From contig PLWZ01000056.1 of assembly GCA_003151235.1 (NCBI GenBank), forward strand, positions 62,001 to 126,000: 64,000 nucleotides of DNA. The letters are read 5' to 3'. Within the stretch, counting starts at the first letter, position 1. Each line of letters starts with the position of its first letter. Source of the DNA: Acidimicrobiaceae bacterium. GTDB lineage: Bacteria; Actinomycetota; Acidimicrobiia; Acidimicrobiales; RAAP-2. Made by a program: the position numbers and the translations under genes. Below the pieces are notes generated by a model. The model did not search any database and was not told the DNA's origin. It worked only from the letters and a program-made list of their open reading frames with translations. Of this stretch, positions 7,154-39,369 are shown piece after piece.

Positions 7154-8515
7154 GTGACGGGGGGCGGGCAATCCGACGGCGACGTCGGCATCTCGGTCTT
7201 CCTGGCCGACGACAACCTCATCGTGCGCGAGGGCGTGCGGGCCCTGTTGTCGCTCGAGCCCGACCTGACCATCGTCGGCACGGCGGCCGACTACGACGGG
7301 CTAGTCGCGGGAGCCACCGAGGCGGCGCCCCAGGTCGTCGTGACCGACATCCGGATGCCACCGTCGTTCCAGCGCGAGGGCATCGACGCGGCCCACGAGA
7401 TCCGCAAGCGGCACCCCGGGACCGGCGTGGTCGTGCTGTCCCAGTTCGACGACCCCGAGTACGCGATCTCGCTGCTCGAGCAGGGCGCGGCCGGTTACGC
7501 GTACCTGTTGAAGGACCGGGTCGCCGAGGGCGACCAGCTGGCCCGGGCCGTGCGCACGGTCGCTACCGGTGGCTCGGTGCTCGACCCGACCATCGTCGAG
7601 GCCATGGTCCATCCGGTCACCGACAAGAGCGACCTCGGGGTGGCCGACGAGGAGCTGCTCCGACTGGTCGCGGAGGGCCGGCCGATCAAGGCCATCGCGG
7701 TCGCGCAGGGCAGCACCCCCGCGGCGGCGGCGGAGGCGGTCGAGAAGCTCTTCTTGAAGCTGGCCCAGGACGCGAGCGGCGGCGGGCAGAGCTCGCTGCG
7801 CCGGCTGCGGATGCTGCACGAGGCCATCGTGAACCGGGAGGAGCAGGGCGAGACGCTCAGCCGCCTCCTGCCGGGCGGCGTCGCCGAGATGCTGCGGAGC
7901 CAGGGTCGCCGGGCCGGCGAGACCAAGGAGCTCGTGGTGAGCGTGCTCATGTCCGACATCCGCGGGTACACGACCATCGCCGAGCACGCCGACCCGAGCG
8001 CGCTAGCCGGCCAGCTGAACGTGCACCGGAGCGAGATGAACAAGGCCATCCTGTCGGTCGACGGCACGGTGATGCAGTTCGTCGGCGACGCGGTGATGGC
8101 GGTCTTCGGCGCCCCCGTCGCGATGGAGGACCACGCCGAGCGGGCCGTGCAGGCCGCGCTCGCGATGCACGAGGCCCAAGACGAGGTGAACCGGTCGTGG
8201 CGCGAGCAGGGGCTGGCCGAGTTCGGCCTCGGCATCGGGGTCACCACCGGGCCGGTCGCGGCGGCACTGCTCGGTTCCGAGGAACGGCTCGAGTACACGC
8301 TGGTCGGCGACACGGTCAACCTGTCCCAGCGGCTCCAGCAGTGGGCCGAGCCCGGGGACACGGTGCTGTCCGAGGCCACCTACCGCGACCTGGCGTCGCC
8401 CCCCGAGATGGAGCAGATACCAGCCGCCCTCGTGAAGGGCCGGGACACCCCGGTGTCGGCGTGGCGAATCCCGGCAGCGAACAGACCGACCCCCGCACCA
8501 CTCGGCGCGGGCTGA
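7154..8515 (+). CDS. Response regulator fused to class III adenylate/guanylate cyclase
   Basis: 453 aa, GTG start. Residues 11-135 are a NarL-type receiver with the phosphorylation set intact (DD at 19-20, Asp65 in VVTDIRMPP, Ser96, Lys120). Residues about 165-212 align with the LuxR helix-turn-helix position but are degenerate (LGVADEELLRLVAEG, then an Ala-rich run) and probably no longer bind DNA. From about 262 follows a class III cyclase domain: VLMSDIRGYTT with the first metal Asp, FVGDAVMAVFGAP with the second, and YTLVGDTVNLSQRL. The enzyme should make cAMP or cGMP from ATP or GTP under control of phosphorylation. Its neighbours are a cNMP-binding protein upstream and a histidine kinase two genes downstream. 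Confidence 0.92.
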   Translation: MTGGGQSDGDVGISVFLADDNLIVREGVRALLSLEPDLTIVGTAADYDGLVAGATEAAPQVVVTDIRMPPSFQREGIDAAHEIRKRHPGTGVVVLSQFDDPEYAISLLEQGAAGYAYLLKDRVAEGDQLARAVRTVATGGSVLDPTIVEAMVHPVTDKSDLGVADEELLRLVAEGRPIKAIAVAQGSTPAAAAEAVEKLFLKLAQDASGGGQSSLRRLRMLHEAIVNREEQGETLSRLLPGGVAEMLRSQGRRAGETKELVVSVLMSDIRGYTTIAEHADPSALAGQLNVHRSEMNKAILSVDGTVMQFVGDAVMAVFGAPVAMEDHAERAVQAALAMHEAQDEVNRSWREQGLAEFGLGIGVTTGPVAAALLGSEERLEYTLVGDTVNLSQRLQQWAEPGDTVLSEATYRDLASPPEMEQIPAALVKGRDTPVSAWRIPAANRPTPAPLGAG

Positions 8516-8528
8516 AGGAGGAGAACCG

Positions 8529-9257
8529 ATGAACGTCCTCGAGGTCCGCGGGGTCCGCAAGACCTACGAGTCTGAAGGGGTCCCGGTGCGGGCGCTGCGC
8601 GGCCTCGACATGACCATGGCCGAGGGCGAATTCGTGGCCGTCATGGGGCCGTCGGGCTGCGGCAAGTCGACCCTCCTCAACCTCGTGGCCGGGCTCGACG
8701 CCCCGACCGAGGGCGAGATCACGGTCGCCGGCGAGTCGCTCACCGACAAGGACGAGAACGACCTTGCCCGCATGCGGCGGCGCCACATCGGCATCGTCTT
8801 CCAGTTCTTCAACCTGCTCGAGGGGATGAGCGTGCTCGAGAACGTGACGCTGCCCGCGGTCATCGCCGGGACCAAGCGGCGCCAGGCCGAGAGCCGCGCC
8901 CGCGACCTTCTCGACCTGCTCGGCCTGGGCGACAAGGCCCGCAGCGCGCCTGGTGTGCTCTCGGGCGGCCAGCGGCAGCGGCTCGCCATCGCCCGGGCGC
9001 TGGCCAACGCGCCGACCCTGCTCCTCGCCGACGAGCCGACCGGCGCGCTCGACTCCGAGGGCGGCGTCGAGGTCCTCGAGCTGTTCCGACGTCTGCACGC
9101 GGGCGGCCAGGCGATCCTCCTCGTCACCCACGACGAGGACGTGGCGGCGCCGGCCACCCGGATCATCCGGATGCGCGACGGTCGCGTGGAAGACGACGGC
9201 ACCGGCAAGGCCCAGCCCGAGCCGGTCGGGGGAAGCGCTCCATCGGCAGTCCAGTGA
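8529..9257 (+). CDS. ABC transporter ATP-binding protein, MacB/LolD-like, without permease
   Basis: 242 aa, ATG with a GGAGGAG site 13 bases after the cyclase gene. Complete ATPase: Walker A GPSGCGKST (about 39-47), Q-loop FQFFN, signature LSGGQRQR, Walker B LLLADEPTGALD and the switch His in LLVTHD. Sequence style is that of the MacB/LolD/FtsE-like group, which normally pairs with a FtsX-type permease. No permease lies in the window. Its stop overlaps the start of the histidine kinase gene (GTGA), so the two are translationally coupled. It could power an unlinked permease or work as a sensory partner of the ten-segment kinase; the second idea is speculative. Confidence 0.88.
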   Translation: MNVLEVRGVRKTYESEGVPVRALRGLDMTMAEGEFVAVMGPSGCGKSTLLNLVAGLDAPTEGEITVAGESLTDKDENDLARMRRRHIGIVFQFFNLLEGMSVLENVTLPAVIAGTKRRQAESRARDLLDLLGLGDKARSAPGVLSGGQRQRLAIARALANAPTLLLADEPTGALDSEGGVEVLELFRRLHAGGQAILLVTHDEDVAAPATRIIRMRDGRVEDDGTGKAQPEPVGGSAPSAVQ

Positions 9258-11449
9258 CCAACCCGATTAGCGCACCAATCTTCGTCAACCAGCTCGGGAG
9301 GACCCCGGAGAAGGAGCGGCGCGAGCCGGCCAAACCGGTCCCGGCCCTGCTCGGGGTCGTCCTGGCCGCCATCGCGCTGGCCGGGGGGGTTGCGTCCCCG
9401 CTCATCGACCGCCACGGCGACCTGCAGACCCAGGTGGTCCGCGGCATCGTCGTCGTCGCGTTCGCGCTGGCCGGGGTCTTCGCGCTGGCCCGTCGGCCGT
9501 CGGAGCGCCAGCCGGTCCTGGTGCTGCTCGCGGCAAGCCTCGGCGGCGCCGCGTCGGCGCTGGCCGCCCTGATCGAGGCGCACGGGCACGGAATGTCCGT
9601 GTCGGCCGGGCTGCTCTCGTTCGCCCGGGTCGGCGAGCCGGTGGCCCTGGCCCTCCTGCCGATCGCGATCATGCACCTGTTGCTCGGCCTTCCCGACGGC
9701 AGCTGCCGGCTCGGCCGCCTCGCCATCGGCATCGGCTACCTGCTCGGCACGGCCCTCGGGATCGGGCTGTGGACCCGCCGCCCGACGCTGCCACTGTGGC
9801 CGGTCGGCCTCGAGCTCCTCGTCGCGCTCGGCGTCGGCGCCATCGGGTCCCAGCGCCGCTACACCCGCTCGTCGGGCCTCGAGCGCCAGCGAATGCAGTG
9901 GTTCGGGTGGGCCGCCGCGCTCACGGTCGAGATCCTGCTGGTCGCGCTGGCCATGCGGGGCCTCTGGGAGTGGCCGACCCGGTACCCGCTGGTGGCGGTG
10001 GTGTCGCTGCTCCCGATCGCGGTGGCCGTCGTCATGGGTGGCACCCGCCGCTTCGCCGCGCGCATCGACCGGATCCTCGCCCACACGGTGTCGCTGGCCG
10101 GCCTGACCGGGATCGTGGTGGTCGTCTATCTCGTGATCGTGCTCGGGCTCGGACAGGGCCCGTCCAGCCACGGTGAGCGCTCCCTGCTCGTGTACTCGAT
10201 GGTCGCTGCGGCCATCGCCTCGCTCCTCTACGGTCCGGCCCGCCAGCGGCTCGGCCAGGCCGCCAACCGCATCGTCTACGGCGAGCGGGAGGCCCCCGAC
10301 ACCGTGCTGCGGACCTTCGGAAGCCGGCTGTCGCGCGCCATCCCGATGGACGAGCTGCTCCTCCAGGTGGCCGAGTCGCTCCGAAAGACCCTCGCGCTCA
10401 GCGCAGCCGAGGTCTGGACCGGCTCGGGCGGTCGGCTGGAGCGGACCATCTCGGTGCCCGACGTGCCCGTCACCCGGCTGGCCTTGAACGAGGAGGAGCA
10501 GTCGGTGGTGGCCCGGGCCGGCGTGACCGGGACCGCGTGGCTCGAGGTGTGGCTGCCCGCGATGTTGGAGGGGCGCCGGGACTCGATCCTCCGGGTCGCC
10601 CCGACCACGCACTCGGGCCAGGTGCTCGGCTTGATCGTTGCGGTCCGGCCGCCCGGCGGCGACCAGTTCACGACCGACGACGACACGATGCTGACCGAAC
10701 TGGCCCGCCAGGTTGCCCTGGCCCTGCACAACGTCGAGCTCGACTCGGCCCTGCAGGAGTCATTAGAAGAGGTGCGCCGGCAGGCCGACGAGCTCCAGGC
10801 CTCCCGGGCCCGCATCGTGGCCGCGTCCGACGCGGCGCGGCGCCAGATCGAGCGGAACCTCCACGACGGGGCCCAGCAGCACCTGGTCGCGCTGGCGGTC
10901 AATGTGCGCCTGGCCCGCAAGCTTGCCGAGACCGACCCCGAGGCGTCCTTCGAGCTGCTCGACCAGCTCGGCCTCGACCTCCAGGACGCGGTGCAGGAGC
11001 TGCGGGCGTTGGCCCACGGCATCTACCCGCCGCTGCTCATCGACCGCGGGCTCGAGGAGGCGTTGCGCGCCGCGGCCGGCCGCGCCGCGCTCGAGACCGA
11101 CGTGGTCGCGACCGACGTCCACCGCTACTCGCCCGAGACCGAGGCGGCGGCCTACTTCTGCTGCATGGAGGCGCTGCAGAACGCGGGCAAGCACGCCGGC
11201 GAAGGCTCGACGGCCACCGTCAAGGTGTGGGAGGACGACCGCCGGCTGTTCTTCGAGGTCTCAGACAACGGGGCCGGCTTCGAGATGAAGGGGGCCGCCG
11301 GGAAGGGGGCCGGCTTCGTCAACATGTCCGACCGGGTCGGCGCGGTGGGCGGGACGCTCAACGTCGAGTCGGCTCCGGGCAAGGGCACGACGATCTCGGG
11401 TCGCGTGCCGATCACCGTGCCGGCCCAGCCGAAGGTCGCGGTCTCCTAA
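9254..11449 (+). CDS. Polytopic GAF/HisKA_3 sensor histidine kinase
   Basis: 731 aa; GTG start overlapping the ABC ATPase stop by 4 bases. Roughly ten hydrophobic segments fill residues 30-325, making a large membrane sensor. A GAF-like domain follows (about 345-505), then a short coiled-coil linker and the dimerisation/phosphoacceptor helix ASDAARRQIERNLHDGAQQH, with His537 as the site. The ATPase domain has the N-box MEALQNAGKHA and the G boxes DNGAGF and GKGAGFVNMSDR. This is the NarX/LiaS class that phosphorylates NarL-type regulators. Candidate partners are nearby: the receiver-cyclase upstream and the two regulators on the opposite strand. Its stop overlaps the stop of the convergent receiver gene. 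Confidence 0.92.
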   Translation: MTNPISAPIFVNQLGRTPEKERREPAKPVPALLGVVLAAIALAGGVASPLIDRHGDLQTQVVRGIVVVAFALAGVFALARRPSERQPVLVLLAASLGGAASALAALIEAHGHGMSVSAGLLSFARVGEPVALALLPIAIMHLLLGLPDGSCRLGRLAIGIGYLLGTALGIGLWTRRPTLPLWPVGLELLVALGVGAIGSQRRYTRSSGLERQRMQWFGWAAALTVEILLVALAMRGLWEWPTRYPLVAVVSLLPIAVAVVMGGTRRFAARIDRILAHTVSLAGLTGIVVVVYLVIVLGLGQGPSSHGERSLLVYSMVAAAIASLLYGPARQRLGQAANRIVYGEREAPDTVLRTFGSRLSRAIPMDELLLQVAESLRKTLALSAAEVWTGSGGRLERTISVPDVPVTRLALNEEEQSVVARAGVTGTAWLEVWLPAMLEGRRDSILRVAPTTHSGQVLGLIVAVRPPGGDQFTTDDDTMLTELARQVALALHNVELDSALQESLEEVRRQADELQASRARIVAASDAARRQIERNLHDGAQQHLVALAVNVRLARKLAETDPEASFELLDQLGLDLQDAVQELRALAHGIYPPLLIDRGLEEALRAAAGRAALETDVVATDVHRYSPETEAAAYFCCMEALQNAGKHAGEGSTATVKVWEDDRRLFFEVSDNGAGFEMKGAAGKGAGFVNMSDRVGAVGGTLNVESAPGKGTTISGRVPITVPAQPKVAVS

Positions 11450-30644: not shown

Positions 30645-30879
30645 AAGCAGCCGAGAACGCTGACCCGAGCTTCGCTGCAACATTGTCAGCCGTTCGCAGC
30701 GTTGCCCTGACTCCTCCTGGAAGGGCAGTTCGCCTCTAACATCTATTCGTTCCGGCTGCCGCTCGACGAGTCGGCCTGGCGGCACTTGCCATCTTCGGCC
30801 GCCTGGCGTGGCGGGGAGTTCGCCGGCGAACTCTGTAGCCAACGGCGAGAACGTGGGGACCACCGAGGTTGCAGTCCGT

Positions 30880-31641
30880 CTACGCCTGACGAGGCTCTCT
30901 TCCCGGAAGGAGCCGCTCGAGGAGCGCGTCGACTTCGGCCACGCGGGCCCCGTGCCGAGCGAAGTCGAGTTCGCGTTCATAGAAGCTGACCCCTGGGTCA
31001 ATGATCGCTGATGCCGGCATTGTCGCAAGCGACTCTGGTTCTGGGCGGTCGAGCCAGCGTTGCACGATCGAGTCCGGGCGGAGCTGACTCACAAAGCACA
31101 TGAGAGCGGCAGCCTTGCGGTCGAGCTCCCGCAGCCCCTCACCGAACACTTCCACGTCGGGGAAACTCCTACGGTCGAGGTGGCCAAAGTGCAGACTCTC
31201 ATCGGGCGCGTAGCCGTACAAGCTGTATACCCGCCAGCTAAAAGCTCGGTTGGTCAAAACGGAGCGGACACGCAGCGCGGCGACGTAGGCGGCGTCATGG
31301 TCCGGATGGCCCCGCTGGTAGGCGGGGACGTGAACGGTCGCCGACTTGAACTTTCCAAGTAAGTCACCTAGCGCCACAGTGAGATCCGGCACTGATCGCC
31401 ATACCGAGAGGTCGCGCAAGCCCATTTCGACGACGTCCTTCACGCGGGCACCGAGTGTCTCCCACGCAGCTTCGCACTCATGGTGCCGTCGCTGGCGCAG
31501 CGCGTTGACATCATCACCAGGTGTCCACGGGGGCACTCCGTCGCTGAGGAGGACAACCGTCGTCGCACTCTCACGAAGCACCGATGAGCAACCGAGAACC
31601 TCGTCATCGGGGTGCGGCGCAATGACTATTGATTCAGTCAC
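30880..31641 (-). CDS. PIG-L family zinc deacetylase
   Basis: 253 aa. The start overlaps the stop of the glycosyltransferase gene by 4 bases (ATGA). The Zn-binding motifs are HPDDE at 10-14 (IAPHPDDEVLG) and HPDH at 112-115, with the catalytic Asp in the first. PIG-L enzymes remove N-acetyl groups from GlcNAc conjugates, as in mycothiol or bacillithiol synthesis, or cleave amides. The loop DLSVWRSVPDL and the C-terminal half are specific to this protein. It forms a unit with the glycosyltransferase, and a second PIG-L gene lies on the other side of the divergent locus. Confidence 0.92.
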   Translation of the reverse strand: MTESIVIAPHPDDEVLGCSSVLRESATTVVLLSDGVPPWTPGDDVNALRQRRHHECEAAWETLGARVKDVVEMGLRDLSVWRSVPDLTVALGDLLGKFKSATVHVPAYQRGHPDHDAAYVAALRVRSVLTNRAFSWRVYSLYGYAPDESLHFGHLDRRSFPDVEVFGEGLRELDRKAAALMCFVSQLRPDSIVQRWLDRPEPESLATMPASAIIDPGVSFYERELDFARHGARVAEVDALLERLLPGREPRQA

Positions 31642-32702
31642 CCCAGTGCTTGGGCCAGCTCGTCGCCTAGGACGTGAACATAGGCCTCAGCGTCAGCAAG
31701 ATCAGGCCGAACTTGACGGCGACGAGTGGAGGCATGGGCGAAGAATGGTTCAACCAGATTGTCCACCGCGACATTGACCGACACTCCCCGTTCGACAGCG
31801 CGAACGGCGCCAGCGAGCTCGGCGCACCACGCCGTCTGGGCGACGCTGGCGTCAGCGCTGGGCCCCGGGGTATCTGGTGTCGTTCGGCCTGGCAGTCGAC
31901 CCCAGGCCTCGTCTGATTCGTTCATTGAGGCCTCGAGATCCGAAGGCCATTGCAGCTCCTCCCAGTATTGCTCGGGCCACGTAACGTCACTGCGGTCAGA
32001 TCGGGGTCCTTTGGAGACTCGAGTGAGCATCGCTGCCGCTACGTCTCTCATGATCGCCTCACTGTTGCTTGGGCGCTCGGGGTGCGAGACCCCTGGTAAG
32101 GGGACCTGACCGATTCGCCCGCCCCTGTCAAGCACCGACATCGTGAGGGCAATGTCGATGCCGTAGTCGTCCGGAAGGGCATCGATGTTGAGTGCCTGGA
32201 GCAGCGAGTGACCGATGAACATCTGACCGGCGAGGGGCTGGCGGACCCGAGCGCCGTATAGGGCGCGCAGCAAGGGGGACGCGAGGTAATTGGTGCTGTT
32301 TGCATGCCCCCATTGTCTGCACCACAGTGGCAATACGAAGTCGAGGTTGTTTCGGTAAGCAATGGATACGAACCGCGCCACGTTGGACGGTTCGTAGTGA
32401 CGAAGGTCGGCATCGACAAGCAGTAGGTCTGCTTCGTGCTCGACACAGTGGCGTGCAATTAGCTTGACGTTCAGCCCCTTGCCCCTGGCGCCAGGCTCGC
32501 ATTCGAGCACTCGTTGACGAATTCGAGTGGTTCGGTCGCGCCACTGAGCGAGTGTGTCGTCCTCGCTGGTCTGGTAGCCAAGCACGAGTTCGGTGACGGC
32601 CATTTCCCCAACGAGAGCAGCACCTTGCTCAAGGGAGTCCCCCATCCGGGCGACCGTGGACGCCTCGTTACGAGCAGGGATGCCTAGGACGAGGTACGGC
32701 AC
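31638..32702 (-). CDS. GT-A glycosyltransferase, GPGS/mannosylglycerate synthase-like
   Basis: 354 aa, ATG start. GT-A fold with motifs LGIPARNEASTV (5-16), GARGKGLN (71-78), metal-binding DADL (97-100), RQPLAG (154-159) and DYGIDI (179-184). The GKGxN, DAD, QPLaG and D.G(I/V)(D/E) series is that of retaining transferases such as glucosyl-3-phosphoglycerate synthase and mannosylglycerate synthase, as I recall those families. Residues after about 260 form an extra C-terminal domain with an Ala-rich helix. It has no membrane segment. It likely transfers a hexose or amino sugar to a small acceptor, which the coupled PIG-L enzyme could then deacetylate. Confidence 0.85.
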   Translation of the reverse strand: MPYLVLGIPARNEASTVARMGDSLEQGAALVGEMAVTELVLGYQTSEDDTLAQWRDRTTRIRQRVLECEPGARGKGLNVKLIARHCVEHEADLLLVDADLRHYEPSNVARFVSIAYRNNLDFVLPLWCRQWGHANSTNYLASPLLRALYGARVRQPLAGQMFIGHSLLQALNIDALPDDYGIDIALTMSVLDRGGRIGQVPLPGVSHPERPSNSEAIMRDVAAAMLTRVSKGPRSDRSDVTWPEQYWEELQWPSDLEASMNESDEAWGRLPGRTTPDTPGPSADASVAQTAWCAELAGAVRAVERGVSVNVAVDNLVEPFFAHASTRRRQVRPDLADAEAYVHVLGDELAQALG

Positions 32703-32815
32703 TTAAGGTGGAGTTGCAGCCGCGCAAGCATTTGTCGAGTTCGAACCGTACTACCCTCCAAGCGTGGCAAGGACTCCACGTTGACAAGCGCTCCTCGACG
32801 ACGTTTGCCTGTGGG

Positions 32816-33754
32816 ATGAATGTCGAAGTCGTCCATCCGGATGAGTTCGGTCCTGGTGACCTCAAAGTCTGGCGCCGCTTTCAGAGCGAGGACCAGCGTC
32901 TCACGAGCCCGTTCCTTGCGCCAGAGTTTGCGCAGGCAGTCGGTCGCGCCAGGCACGACGCCCGCGTCGCTGTCATCCACGATGGTGGCGTCGCAGGCTA
33001 TTTCGCCTTCCAAGTGAGTGCGGCGCTGGGTGTTCCCATCGGCGCCACCATCTGTGACACCCAAGCGGTCGTATGCCACAGGGATTTATGTTGGGACGCT
33101 CGCTGGCTCGTCCACAGCTGCGGTCTCGAGGTGTGGCAGTTCGACCATCTCGCTGTCCACCAGGACCCGTTCGTACCGTTCCACGCGGTTCGTCACAGCT
33201 CGCCCACAATTGACCTGTCGGGAGGGCACGACAACTTTCTCGAATCCGTTCGTGCCAGATCCAAGAATCTCATCGCCCAGGTGGCTCGTCGTCGTCGGAA
33301 ACTCACGCGGGAGGTTGGCCCCGTAGTGACAACTTGGGACAGTGCCGGCGCCGACGAGTTCGCCGCGCTGGTCAGGTGGAAGTCGGATCAATACCAGCGC
33401 ACGGGGACGTGGGACCGCTTTGAGCGTGAATGGATTCGCGACGTCCTGACTGAGTTACTCAGGTGCAAATCGGCCGGGTGCTCCGGGGTGATGGCCACGA
33501 CCCACGCTGGAGACCGCCTTGCCGCCGTACACATCGGCCTGCTCGGCGGGACTGGCCTGTCCTGGTGGTTCCCAGCCTACGACCCGGACCTGAGCCAGTA
33601 TTCGCCGGGTCTAATAATGCTGCTCGACCTCGCCGCACAGGCCTCCGAGCGCGGCGTACGCACAATCGACCTCGGACGTGGCGAGCACGCTTACAAGCTG
33701 CGCGTGGCGACCGGGGCATACGACTTGGCTGAAGGGCAGGTGCCCGCGGCATGA
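32816..33754 (+). CDS. CelD/BcsL-type GNAT acyltransferase
   Basis: 312 aa from the ATG (MNVEVVHPDEFGPGD); the frame is open 36 codons upstream but that part reaches into the region shared with the divergent gene. It shows the double-GNAT layout of CelD/FemAB-like proteins. The second half contains RSKNLIAQVARRRRKLTREV, AALVRWKSDQYQRTGT and the acyl-CoA-side part AVHIGLLGGTGLSWWFPAYD, ending with IDLGRGEHAYKLRVATGAYD. These enzymes acylate sugars or amino groups. The next gene starts 4 bases before its stop (ATGA), so it works together with the second PIG-L protein. Confidence 0.85.
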   Translation: MNVEVVHPDEFGPGDLKVWRRFQSEDQRLTSPFLAPEFAQAVGRARHDARVAVIHDGGVAGYFAFQVSAALGVPIGATICDTQAVVCHRDLCWDARWLVHSCGLEVWQFDHLAVHQDPFVPFHAVRHSSPTIDLSGGHDNFLESVRARSKNLIAQVARRRRKLTREVGPVVTTWDSAGADEFAALVRWKSDQYQRTGTWDRFEREWIRDVLTELLRCKSAGCSGVMATTHAGDRLAAVHIGLLGGTGLSWWFPAYDPDLSQYSPGLIMLLDLAAQASERGVRTIDLGRGEHAYKLRVATGAYDLAEGQVPAA

Positions 33755-34575
33755 GCCAGACGCGAGAGCTCACTCTGATGGCCGTGCACGCTCACCCCGA
33801 CGACGAAGCCATCTCGACGCCCGGCGTGCTGGCAAGATACTCACTCGAAGGTGTTCGCACGGTGCTGGTGACCTGCACCGACGGCGCCCTCGGCTTCGGC
33901 CCGGGCCGCAGTAGTCCGGGCGAGCCAGCCCATGATCCGATGTCCCTGGCTGTGCTGCGTAGAGCAGAGCTTGAGCGTTCGTGTGCGCACCTGGGTGTCC
34001 GTCACCTCGAGGTGCTCGGCTATCACGACTCCGGGATGGCGGGTTGGGAAGCGAATCGCCATCCTGATGCGTTCTGCAATGCGCCGATCGACGAGGTCGC
34101 CGATCGACTTGCGTCCCTGATCGAGCGGTATCGTCCGCATGTTCTTGTAACTTACGATTCAGATGGCGGTTACGGTCATCCCGACCACATCCGGACTCAC
34201 CGCGTCACGATGGCGGCGCTGGAGCGCACCGAGGTGGTTTTGAAGGTCTACCTGACGGCTCGCACGGAAGGATTTCGGCAACGCATGCACGCAGCACGTG
34301 CCACCTTCCGACCTGGTCCCGATGGAGTAAGCGCCCCCTCAGTCGTGGGTATCAGCGACGATCGAATCACGACGAGGGTTGACACATCGATGGTGATGGA
34401 CCGTCATCGTGCTGCGCTCGCCGCTCACGAGAGCCAGCTGTCGGGCACCCACTGGCTCCGCATGCCTGCCGATATCTTCAATACGCTTTTCGATGAGGAG
34501 ACTTTCGTCCGCTGTGCCGACTCCACCGGGTCGCCGGTACCCGAGGACGACCTGTTTGCCGGCCTGCGCGGCTAA
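33751..34575 (+). CDS. PIG-L family deacetylase, MshB/Mca-like
   Basis: 274 aa, ATGA overlap with the acyltransferase gene. Zn motifs are HPDDE at 15-19 (AVHAHPDDEAIS) and HPDH at 143-146 (DGGYGHPDHIRTH), with GYHDSGMAGW at 90-99. This set and the length match the MshB/Mca branch (mycothiol deacetylase or conjugate amidase) better than the other PIG-L protein of the locus does. I do not assign it as MshB because no other mycothiol genes are in the window. Confidence 0.9.
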   Translation: MSQTRELTLMAVHAHPDDEAISTPGVLARYSLEGVRTVLVTCTDGALGFGPGRSSPGEPAHDPMSLAVLRRAELERSCAHLGVRHLEVLGYHDSGMAGWEANRHPDAFCNAPIDEVADRLASLIERYRPHVLVTYDSDGGYGHPDHIRTHRVTMAALERTEVVLKVYLTARTEGFRQRMHAARATFRPGPDGVSAPSVVGISDDRITTRVDTSMVMDRHRAALAAHESQLSGTHWLRMPADIFNTLFDEETFVRCADSTGSPVPEDDLFAGLRG

Positions 34576-34649
34576 ACCGTCCGCGGCGACAAACAGCCGC
34601 CAGTGTGTGACCCCGGTTCAGCCGCATCCCCAACGATCTAGAGGCTCGT

Positions 34650-36080: not shown

Positions 36081-36323
36081 TTGTCCTTGACCACCGCTCC
36101 CGACGCGTCAGGTGCACAAATCGGACTCAACCGTCCTAGGCACCCACCCGGCGAACGGGCTGGCGTTGGGCATCGCCCCTCTTGAGGTCACACCTGGACC
36201 TCGCGATTCCCTCAGTGACGCACAGCTCTTGTCGCTGACTGTCCCCACTACCGGTTCCTGGAACGATGTCAGTGCTGTCGCGCCGAGAACAGCGGCTGCC
36301 CGTCGAGCTATAGATTGCTTCGA

Positions 36324-37589
36324 ATGGCACCCGAGTCGACGATCGTTGTCGAGCGCCGCAAGGAGTTGACGTACCTTCTTTGCCAGGGAGCAGAGCTCGA
36401 ACACGGGCTGATGTGCCAGTATCTCTACGCTGCCTTCAGCTTAAAGACGAGACCTGGACCCGGGGTTCGGCCAGACCAGCTGGAGGCGATCGAACGGTGG
36501 CGATCGGTCATCCTCGCCATCTCGCGTGAGGAAATGCTCCATTGGTCGATGGTGCAGAACCTTCTGACGGCGGTCGGATCGGCTCCGTTCGTTAGCCGTC
36601 CCCACATGCCCCATCAAGCCAAGGGCTACCCACCCGGTGTGCAGCTCCGGCTCCTCCCATTCGGCGAAGCAGCGTTGCAGCATTTCGTCTACCTCGAGCG
36701 TCCCGAAGGCATGGAACTCTCGGATGCGGCCGGATTCGAGCACGATGGCCAGACGCTGACACCCATGACCGCGAACGAGATCGTGCCCCGGGGCCAGAAT
36801 TTCGCGACCCAAGGCGATCTCTACCGGTCGATCGAGACCGGGCTGGTTGAGCTGGCGCGCAAATTCGGCGAGGACCAACTCTTCATCGGTCCTGTGTTTC
36901 ATCAGACGGATGAAGAGACGTTCCGTTGGCCCGAGCTCGAGCCCATTGTTGATCTCGAAGGAGCGATCCGCGCCTTGGAGCGCATTGTCGAGAATGGAGA
37001 AGGCACCCGAGGCGAGTGGTCAACGGCGCACTTCGGCCGGTTCCTCGACGTGCTCCACGAGTACCAGGAAATGCAGAGCGACGACCTCCAATTCGAGCCG
37101 GCGCACCCGGTCGTCGCAGCTGGAATGCGGGCTGTCGAAGGCATAGAACCGGACGTCTACATCACCGATCGAACCACCGGGCTGACATCGGACCTGTTCA
37201 ATGCGATCTACGAGCTGTTGCTCCAGATGATCGCCCGGTACTTTGCCTTCGGGCATGAGACTTCACAGCAGCGCGCGGTGCTAGCTCGCGCCGCGGTGGA
37301 TCTGATGTTCAATTCGATCGATCCGCTCGGCCTTCTACTCGCAGAGCTCGACGTCGGTCCCGAGCACCCCGGCGCCACCGCGGGTGCGAACTTCCAGCTT
37401 CCGTACCGGGCCAACTTCCTGCTGCCTCACCGGCGTTCAGCGTGGATTCGCTTCGTCGAACGCCTTCGCGAACTTGCCGCGTTCGCGCACGATATTGGCC
37501 CGTTCCGGGGGGAGCAGGTGGTGCGTGGTGTCGCCGACGCGCTAGACAGCATGGCGACAGATCTGGCCGCGCATATCGAGGCCGTGTGA
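36324..37589 (+). CDS. Ferritin-like protein, VioB/iminophenylpyruvate dimer synthase-type domain
   Basis: 421 aa from ATG (MAPESTIVVERRKELTY); a TTG three codons upstream is less likely. The N-terminal ferritin-like four-helix domain has GAELEHGLMCQYLYAAFSLK (E26, H27) and ISREEMLHWSMVQNLLTAVG (E69, E70, H73), the di-iron ligand arrangement of the VioB/RebD N-terminal domain family. The C-terminal half contains LFNAIYELLLQMIARYFAFG and more helices. There is no VioB C-terminal domain and no tryptophan-dimer pathway nearby. The protein may be an oxidase or an iron protein; the substrate is unknown. The preceding hemerythrin gene suggests a shared O2/iron theme. Confidence 0.8.
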   Translation: MAPESTIVVERRKELTYLLCQGAELEHGLMCQYLYAAFSLKTRPGPGVRPDQLEAIERWRSVILAISREEMLHWSMVQNLLTAVGSAPFVSRPHMPHQAKGYPPGVQLRLLPFGEAALQHFVYLERPEGMELSDAAGFEHDGQTLTPMTANEIVPRGQNFATQGDLYRSIETGLVELARKFGEDQLFIGPVFHQTDEETFRWPELEPIVDLEGAIRALERIVENGEGTRGEWSTAHFGRFLDVLHEYQEMQSDDLQFEPAHPVVAAGMRAVEGIEPDVYITDRTTGLTSDLFNAIYELLLQMIARYFAFGHETSQQRAVLARAAVDLMFNSIDPLGLLLAELDVGPEHPGATAGANFQLPYRANFLLPHRRSAWIRFVERLRELAAFAHDIGPFRGEQVVRGVADALDSMATDLAAHIEAV

Positions 37590-37659
37590 CAACGCCAAAC
37601 TTCAAAGCGAACGCGCTGTCCGATCCACCGTGTCAAACGGGGGTTCCTGAACACTCCGT

Positions 37660-37978
37660 CTATCTACTGGCCTGGGTGCCGGCTGTCGGAAACGAGCGAC
37701 AGGCCCACCGTGGGATGGTCACCAAACAGGACTGCACGACACCGACAGCCTCTCGCAACGCATTCGCTATCCGATTCACGGGTGGCGGTCCCCTTTCCGC
37801 CCAGGGGTCCTGCCGAGTCGCCTGAGTTCGGCCGAGTACGGCGAAGTGAGCGCCTTCCGCCGCCAACACCAACGCGACCCCTCGACCGACGTCCTGACCA
37901 CAGCCAGTGACGATCGCTGGCCGTTGCTCAAGCTGCGTCCCACGCGACTCGTACCGATGCGGGGCCGCGCAAGATCAC
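37660..37978 (-). pseudogene. Short-chain dehydrogenase N-terminal remnant
   Basis: In one minus-strand frame, without a start codon in context, the sequence reads PAIVTGCGQDVGRGVALVLA followed by AEGAHFAVLGRTQ. This is the opening Rossmann unit of a short-chain dehydrogenase (TGxGxxxG). After GRTQ the family pattern is lost and the frame ends at 37660, so only about 45 codons are recognisable. It adjoins a second gene fragment on the same strand. It is not expected to make a functional protein. Confidence 0.5.
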
Positions 37979-38178
37979 CCCTCTAACGCAAGGTTTCTTC
38001 GAGCAACCTCATGTTCGGAAGCCGGCTCAGCACCTGCCCCCCTATGGCATGCAAACGGCCGGCCGGCCTGCACCGCCATCTCGGGAAGCAGGAGAACATT
38101 CGTTGGGACTTCTGGAGTGAAGGTGGCCCGATGGGCAAGGTGGATTGCCCCGCTGACCCTGAAGGATGCCGCGACCAA
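37975..38178 (-). pseudogene. DoxX-like gene remnant, paralogue of the gene at 54365
   Basis: The frame reads VAASFRVSGAIHLAHRATFT and PEVP, then decays. The intact DoxX-like protein at 54365-54787 reads VAAAFTVSGVIHLAHPATFT PIVP at the same place. The similarity is also visible in DNA: 38115-38160 and 54665-54711 agree at most positions. The remaining two thirds of the family (three more membrane segments) are missing. It lies head to tail with the SDR remnant. Confidence 0.65.
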
Positions 38179-38327
38179 TCCAGGGGAAGTACTGGCAGTA
38201 GCGAGCGGACCGCCCCACGGCCGCCGCTGGTTGCCCTAACGAGTCACCTTGGCAGTTCGCGTCTTGAGGTTGACGATTCCCCACGGTTGACCGACTCGTG
38301 AAACCAAGGAGCCGTAGACTTGTACCG

Positions 38328-38714
38328 ATGACTGACGATGATGACCGCTCGTCAATCATCGAGTGCGAGCTTCGACTGCATTCGGGGCGTCCGGCCGATA
38401 GAGCAACTGGAGAGTTGACGTGGGCCGATTGGTCGGAAACTGTTGTCGGTCACGCGGTTACATTCCAAGCCATAGTGAATACGGCAATGGGGACTTGGAA
38501 TGGTCCACTACCCCCTGGAGTGGAAGTCGCCCCGCCACAAGCATTGGACGATCCGCACTGGACCGTGTTTCTTCCCGCAAGTAGGGGCGTTCCAATCATC
38601 GTTGGCCAAGTTGGCCGTGCGCTAGCGACCGGAGAAGCCTTTACTTTGGCTCCAGCCGAACCTGGAAACTGGACAGCGAACGTGGTTTTCGACGGGGCGA
38701 TTGTCACCGACTAG
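38328..38714 (+). CDS. Hypothetical protein, 128 aa
   Basis: Start at the ATG giving MTDDDDRSSIIECELRLHSG; a longer frame starts 30 bases earlier. It is an acidic, beta-rich soluble protein without cysteine clusters or membrane segments. The segment GVEVAPPQALDDPHWTVFLP and the Pro/Gly turns suggest a small barrel. Codon use is less GC-biased than its neighbours (for example TTACATTC, CAATCATC), so it may be acquired. Not recognised; no operon partner, since the next gene is convergent. Confidence 0.5.
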   Translation: MTDDDDRSSIIECELRLHSGRPADRATGELTWADWSETVVGHAVTFQAIVNTAMGTWNGPLPPGVEVAPPQALDDPHWTVFLPASRGVPIIVGQVGRALATGEAFTLAPAEPGNWTANVVFDGAIVTD

Positions 38715-38748
38715 GAGCCAGAGCGGTTAAACCGCACGATCATCTCCG

Positions 38749-38937
38749 TCAATCGAGATCGTCAATTAGATCGAGATCGTCAATTAGGAGGAGCGGAGCC
38801 ATTTCTCCTTGCCGAGAACGAACTCCCTCATCGCTGAGCACACGATCGTCCACCCCGTCCGGGAACTCATCCGTCAAGGTCTGTGCCAGCGTCTCGGCCA
38901 CCTGCTCGCCTGCATCTGCACAGAGGTCCGATGTCAC
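38749..38937 (-). CDS. Small acidic protein with duplicated LIDDLD end
   Basis: 62 aa from a GTG placed 7 bases after GAGGAGGG, a very good ribosome site. The protein reads VTSDLCADAGEQVAETLAQT, then LTDEFPDGVDDRVLSDEG, and ends LLLIDDLDLIDDLD. It is strongly acidic. The final LIDDLD is repeated because of an 18-base tandem duplication at 38753-38788. Not recognised. The ribosome site and acidic helical composition support it, but it could be a non-functional frame. Confidence 0.45.
   Translation of the reverse strand: MTSDLCADAGEQVAETLAQTLTDEFPDGVDDRVLSDEGVRSRQGEMAPLLLIDDLDLIDDLD
38753..38788. repeat. 18-bp tandem duplication
   Basis: ATCGAGATCGTCAATTAG occurs twice back to back (38753-38770 and 38771-38788), identical copies. 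It lies at the 3' end of the small acidic protein gene and keeps the frame. Confidence 0.95.
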
Positions 38938-39369
38938 GATCAATCCCTCCTCGTCCCCAGACGGGAAGACGCTGGCATCATCGAGGCACCGAAACTCTTT
39001 TTCGGAGGACTTGGCGGCCGGCGAGCTATCGAGAGCTGGTACGCGGGACACCCCATGTGGGTTGTAGAGGTGGGCAGCCGAAACAGGCCGGGGCGGCCCC
39101 TGGCCCGAGCGTGCCAGTCTGGTCCGCGAACGGTCAGAGCCTTCCCTGCGCGGCGAATGACGGGCTGTGGCTCGTGACGAGGCTTTCGAAGAACCCGGTC
39201 GAGATCGCTTCACCGCTCTTCCCGGTCGATCAACGGCCCAGCGACTACGCCCAGGTCGATTGGACTGGCCAGTTCGATTGGTGGTCGTCGTAACGACCCA
39301 ATGACATCCACTCGAATCCCCTCCGATTATCTCTCTGGATTCATCGGTTGGAGTAGCTTGAACCGAGCC
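38938..39369. other. Intergenic region, no gene seen
   Basis: 432 bp upstream of the DrrAB-type exporter. Frames on both strands are open but lack ribosome sites. The ATP-binding protein frame could begin at 39301. The region should hold the promoter of the exporter. Confidence 0.35.

Follow-up and report, generated by a model that had tools for sequence, protein, structure and literature searches.

The closest described routes are mycothiol biosynthesis (MshA-MshB-(C)-MshD, Mca), in which retaining transfer of an amino sugar precedes PIG-L de-N-acetylation and GNAT acylation, and the route to the lipo-chitooligosaccharide core (NodC-NodB-NodA), in which a clustered glycosyltransferase (GT), N-deacetylase and N-acyltransferase act in the same order. 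We analysed a 64,000-nucleotide stretch of contig C4 (PLWZ01000056.1) from G000, a metagenome-assembled genome of the class Acidimicrobiia; this whole stretch is called the window below. It carries a divergent locus encoding a GT, an acyltransferase (AT) and two PIG-L-family proteins (PIG-L1 and PIG-L2). Three of these genes, GT, PIG-L1 and AT, would form a module for transfer, de-N-acetylation and N-acylation, and we give about even chances to their serving a route to an N-acylated amino-sugar conjugate. The catalysts of the module and those of the Msh and Nod routes are unrelated or only distantly related.

Gene content and layout of the locus

The locus comprises the following features in the window.

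30880..31641, minus strand: PIG-L1, LmbE/PIG-L-type N-deacetylase of 253 aa, core gene
31638..32702, minus strand: GT, GT-A-type glycosyltransferase of 354 aa, core gene
32703..32815, no strand: divergent intergenic region of 113 bp, which must hold both promoters
32816..33754, plus strand: AT, GNAT/FemAB-like acyltransferase (Acetyltransf_6) of 312 aa, core gene
33751..34575, plus strand: PIG-L2, MshB/Mca-superfamily PIG-L protein of 274 aa, probable lineage-specific addition

All four open reading frames (ORFs) were intact and free of internal stops, at the coordinates given in an earlier account made from the letters alone (the sequence-only reading). That reading had also named two PIG-L proteins and a CelD/FemAB-like acyltransferase, and had found no cysteine ligase at the locus; Pfam agreed, with PIG-L matched twice and Acetyltransf_6 once, all above cut-offs, and no ligase is present. 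It had further placed an ATGA overlap on each side. This was correct for AT and PIG-L2, but the PIG-L1 start overlaps the GT stop as GTGA, both GT and PIG-L1 beginning with GTG in the window. The 113-bp space likewise stood, bounded by an ATG at AT and by a GTG, not an ATG, at GT. An upstream in-frame GTG would extend AT to 348 aa; the ATG at 32816, which yields the 113-bp gap, was chosen because it fits the homologues better. No sigma-70 consensus was found in a promoter scan of the intergenic region.

Conservation of the module

We found one further GT orthologue, in G496, a member of another family, by searching 395 genomes of the class. Its locus, L176, holds three genes.

7880-8827, minus strand: AT, 54% identical to the window AT
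8971-10047, plus strand: GT, 46% identical to the window GT
10058-10807, plus strand: PIG-L1, 38% identical to the window PIG-L1, adjoining GT

AT is divergent from GT-PIG-L1, matching the arrangement in the window. A PIG-L2 relative was not found within the 20 kb fetched around this locus, the rest of the G496 genome not having been searched. Because G496 keeps AT, GT and PIG-L1 without PIG-L2 alongside, the ancestral unit was probably composed of three genes, namely GT, a PIG-L deacetylase and AT. The co-occurrence survey proposed in the sequence-only reading thus recovered GT, PIG-L and AT in a second family in the same divergent layout, but not a four-gene unit. The ligase or methyltransferase partner that it had suggested looking for did not emerge, as neither a cysteine ligase nor any other fifth gene was common to the window-type and G496 loci.

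The whole four-gene block was found in only one other species, G001, from the window's genus, which over the fetched stretch was identical to Acidimicrobiaceae bacterium isolate palsa_461. The four proteins were 88-92% identical (PIG-L1 88%, GT 92%, AT 92%), and the 113-bp spacer was 96% identical. The ratio of nonsynonymous to synonymous substitution rates (dN/dS) between the window and G001 was 0.38 for PIG-L1, 0.35 for GT, 0.18 for AT and 0.25 for PIG-L2, with 0.15 and 0.22 for two flanking genes. Purifying selection therefore acts on all four genes (dN/dS 0.18-0.38). In G001, the block (window 30772-34578) is inverted and occupies the opposite side of the hemerythrin gene. The surrounding HlyIII, ApbA, hemerythrin and ATP-binding cassette (ABC) genes have not changed orientation, indicating that the four genes moved as a unit. 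Between the hemerythrin and ABC genes, the window also holds a stretch containing a ferritin-like gene (36315-39300) that has no counterpart there in G001.

These data bear on whether four unrelated genes simply became adjacent by accident. The PIG-L2 subfamily is stand-alone elsewhere and the neighbours of AT relatives vary in half of the loci, as accidental adjacency would allow, but the three-gene divergent layout is kept at 38-54% identity in another family, stops and starts overlap, and the block was displaced whole. We therefore consider chance a very improbable account of the locus; it is largely refuted for the three core genes and open for PIG-L2.

The module is very rare, being known from three genomes. 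Among 396 phylum-wide genomes, only the window's own gave a GT orthologue or a PIG-L1 match (PIG-L1 limit 1e-12), and among 237 relatives of G496 no GT orthologue was detected besides that of G496 itself. A scan of the whole collection for GT with two peptide patterns returned only the same-genus genome; as the patterns reach close relatives only, it may have missed orthologues like that of G496. Phages gave no DNA match and viral contigs no relative of GT, and searches of the literature collection consulted turned up nothing on this gene combination. The rare and sporadic occurrence of the module suggests spread by horizontal transfer.

The glycosyltransferase and the deacetylase PIG-L1

No Pfam family was assigned to the window GT. 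Its nearest NCBIfam model was glucosyl-3-phosphoglycerate synthase (GPGS) NF010496 (4.3e-14), and its 52.3 bits against a cut-off of 262 place it outside GpgS (GT81); the GTs of the window, G001 and G496 all matched this model only distantly. PF21969 gave a weak match in the G496 homologue. GT thus passes no family cut-off, and these scores put it as an outgroup close to the families of GPGS and mannosylglycerate synthase (MGS). The transferase had been described earlier as GPGS/MGS in style, and this holds as a resemblance but not as family membership (52 bits vs 262).

We then aligned the window GT with eleven relatives, four of which were GPGS-like. GKG, DAD (97-99), QPLAG and a late His (H207) were conserved in GT. 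The residue after QPLAG is Gln in the window GT and His in G496, but Glu or Asp in all 11 of the others (QPLAG/QPIGG), and N135 stands where the four GPGS-like sequences have Arg (GGR[VT]T). Both departures suggest, without proving it, that the acceptor of GT differs from that of its relatives. Distant relatives of the window GT also occur on plasmids of Streptomyces NBC_01304 (L045) and Halorussus salilacus (L046), near a methionine adenosyltransferase, a shikimate dehydrogenase and a Gfo/Idh gene, and it is possible that one cluster is common to this actinobacterium and this haloarchaeon.

PIG-L1 matched Pfam PIG-L above cut-off (8.4e-15). Judged against the metal-ligand table in PMC4101496, the HxDD + H zinc/base motif of PIG-L/LmbE proteins is present in both PIG-L1 (HPDDE/GHPDH) and PIG-L2 (HPDDE/GYGHPDH); in PIG-L1, it is intact with HPDDE at 10 and GHPDH at 111-115. 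The nearest plasmid relatives of PIG-L1 (31%) belong to GT-containing operons of Proteobacteria with the order acyl-CoA dehydrogenase (ACD), PIG-L, small methyltransferase and GT, found on plasmids of Paracoccus, Sulfitobacter, Comamonas and Komagataeibacter (L170, L172, L173, L174). We rejected these operons as the parent system for GT, their GTs not being detectably related to that of the window. Stress-type genes (catalase, ferritin-like, trehalose) lie near several copies of the plasmid operon.

The acyltransferase and its settings

AT belongs to Acetyltransf_6 (PF13480), with 117.5 bits (6.9e-34) for the window protein and 124.1 bits for that of G496 against a cut-off of 22. Relatives at ~40% identity occur in Streptomyces and other Actinomycetota. 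Sequence clustering places a CE4 polysaccharide deacetylase gene next to them in five of the 12 fetched loci, three of these being confirmed by Pfam, and since one cluster type is common to all five, these cases are not independent. In a sixth locus, L100, the AT relative lies beside a PIG-L gene, a GT2 gene and an ORF in which a NodB-like motif was recognised by eye. The AT relative in G369 lies near a uridine diphosphate-glucose dehydrogenase-like gene, a sugar transferase-like gene and a PIG-L gene. Four AT relatives (L047, L048, L101 and L103) share a neighbour gene, which in L048 encodes a DegT/DnrJ-type aminotransferase.

Such polysaccharide-type clusters with GT2 and CE4 genes, together with the G369 locus, speak for a role of GT, PIG-L1 and AT in building or decorating an exported amino-sugar polymer or lipid, that is, in surface glycan or glycolipid modification rather than in making a small cytosolic metabolite. 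The Caulobacter GNAT/FemX-like protein HfsK has its role in holdfast polysaccharide, and the authors who describe it suggest that amines freed by the deacetylase HfsH might be what it acylates (PMC5362036). In G001, an ABC transporter operon directly adjoins the block. However, ABC genes do not adjoin the G496 locus, the three core genes have no conserved partner gene for a flippase, polymerase, exporter or lipid carrier, and the likeness of GT is to soluble GPGS/MGS enzymes with small acceptors. On balance, we regard a surface role as unlikely, though worth keeping in view.

PIG-L2 and mycothiol

PIG-L2 matched Pfam PIG-L above cut-off (2.8e-31), and its HPDDE and GGYGHPDH motifs are intact. 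It scored 182.6 bits against MshB (TIGR03445, cut-off 224.35) and 154.9 bits against Mca (TIGR03446, cut-off 277.15), below both thresholds. A tree of 51 sequences excluded it from the Mca clade (support 100/96) and gave it a long separate branch near a subfamily that most relatives carry and that also occurs in Streptomyces, Kitasatospora and Nonomuraea; support deeper in the tree was weak. PIG-L2 thus belongs to a third MshB/Mca-like subfamily, which is usually stand-alone. None of five annotated plasmid loci had a PIG-L1, GT or AT relative adjacent to the PIG-L2-subfamily gene, and in one of them (CP090842.1) a GT2 gene lies ~2 kb away. Relatives lacking the module carry PIG-L2 homologues at 50-57% identity. 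Most likely, PIG-L2 was recruited into the module in the window's genus. Because its subfamily stands alone elsewhere, we prefer this gain over loss from the G496 lineage, a choice that three genomes cannot settle. The Mca-like role once proposed for the second PIG-L is thereby reduced to a lineage-specific possibility, the protein lying outside the Mca clade and its gene not being beside the G496 locus.

A further possibility is that a mycothiol-like thiol or conjugate is formed or recycled by the module, PIG-L2 being the equivalent of MshB or Mca. PIG-L2 scored best against MshB and carries the GGYGHPDH motif of that enzyme, and no PIG-L scanned in G000 reached the MshB cut-off, so PIG-L2 could supply that step. 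Elsewhere in the genome, we detected MshD (220 bits, above the cut-off of 163) and Mca (contig C16; 307 bits, above 277), as well as MshA-like (another contig; 417 bits, cut-off 462) and MshC-like (contig C30; 405 bits, cut-off 485) genes, both just below threshold. Because these genes lie elsewhere, the module is not the mycothiol pathway of G000. Moreover, the window GT gave a weak GPGS match and no match to MshA (GT4), the locus lacks the cysteine ligase MshC, the G496 module occurs without PIG-L2, and PIG-L2 homologues exist in relatives that have no module. We therefore consider a mycothiol side branch improbable and keep PIG-L2 as the missing MshB as a minor rival. Contig C33 of G000 (9.2 kb; L003/L082) carries a PIG-L gene almost identical to a gene of G023, from a different genus (tree distance 0.03), and because of this it may be assembly contamination.

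Proposed pathway

In the amino-sugar conjugate route that we favour, GT, with its GT-A fold near GPGS/MGS, would attach an N-acetylated amino sugar to an acceptor that is either a small molecule or a lipid, and PIG-L1, a predicted zinc hydrolase, would then strip the N-acetyl group. AT, as a GNAT/FemAB-type enzyme, would by analogy add a different acyl or aminoacyl group to the freed amine. PIG-L2, probably recruited into the AT operon in the window's genus, could serve as another deacetylase or as a turnover amidase that takes the acyl group off again, the role that Mca has for mycothiol conjugates. In favour of the route are the divergent three-gene layout common to two families, the conservation of all four genes in G001 and their movement as a block, the intact motifs of both PIG-L proteins, the deacetylase genes beside AT relatives, the published parallel of HfsK and HfsH (PMC5362036), and the GT-containing operons that hold the closest plasmid relatives of PIG-L1. 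The substrates, reaction order and product given here are those to which family membership and motifs point.

Several considerations weigh against this route. The best-known relatives of GT use guanosine diphosphate-mannose or nucleoside diphosphate-glucose, and an N-acetylhexosamine donor is not evident from its sequence. GT deviates at two usually conserved positions and may have altered or lost activity, although selection argues against loss. With three carrier genomes only, independent cases of co-occurrence are few. Searches of PDB sequences gave no usable relative for GT or AT, and structure models of both, built from two-sequence alignments (predicted local distance difference test scores of 35 and 34), were not used.

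Of the products suggested in the sequence-only reading, an undescribed amino-sugar conjugate remains the best, for the three-gene set and not as a four-gene route. A thiol-like cofactor has lost ground given the mycothiol genes elsewhere in G000, and a compatible solute of the glucosylglycerate type, although possible, would need neither a de-N-acetylase nor an acyltransferase. We tentatively propose, while thinking it somewhat less likely than not to hold in full, an undescribed Acidimicrobiia amino-sugar conjugate pathway in which the PIG-L deacetylase works with a GPGS/MGS-like GT-A enzyme rather than with its usual GT4 partner, acylation is FemAB-like and an Mca-like turnover amidase was recruited later. 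If true, this would enlarge the small group of known PIG-L deacetylase partners by a new glycosyltransferase lineage and indicate that uncultured Actinomycetota have an uncharacterised amino-sugar metabolite; one of the genomes is, by name, a palsa-permafrost assembly. It would also be a case of a usually stand-alone PIG-L subfamily recruited into a pathway.

Comparison with known systems

The likeness to mycothiol biosynthesis extends to PIG-L2, which falls within the MshB/Mca superfamily, but the module has a GPGS/MGS-like GT instead of GT4, an Acetyltransf_6 protein instead of MshD and no ligase, and its genome holds separate mycothiol genes. In the Nod route, NodB belongs to the CE4 deacetylases and NodC is a GT2 enzyme that acts processively; the window proteins are not expected to show family-level homology to this route. 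GpgS and MGS, the nearest GT families, have the GKG, DxD, QPLAG and His motifs in common with the window GT, which nevertheless scores far under curated cut-offs, has N-[ST]-TNYLASPL instead of GGRVT and QPLAG-[QH] instead of QPLAGE, and differs in having PIG-L and acyltransferase genes as neighbours. The HfsK/HfsH system of the Caulobacter holdfast resembles the module by description rather than by sequence, in that a GNAT/FemX-like acyltransferase may be paired with an enzyme that de-N-acetylates a sugar (PMC5362036). It differs in that HfsH deacetylates polysaccharide, the substrate being a polymer, and no cyclic di-GMP control is indicated for the module. Finally, the proteobacterial ACD-PIG-L-NodS-like methyltransferase-GT operon contains the nearest plasmid relative of PIG-L1 alongside a GT, but has an acyl-CoA dehydrogenase and a methyltransferase where the module has AT.

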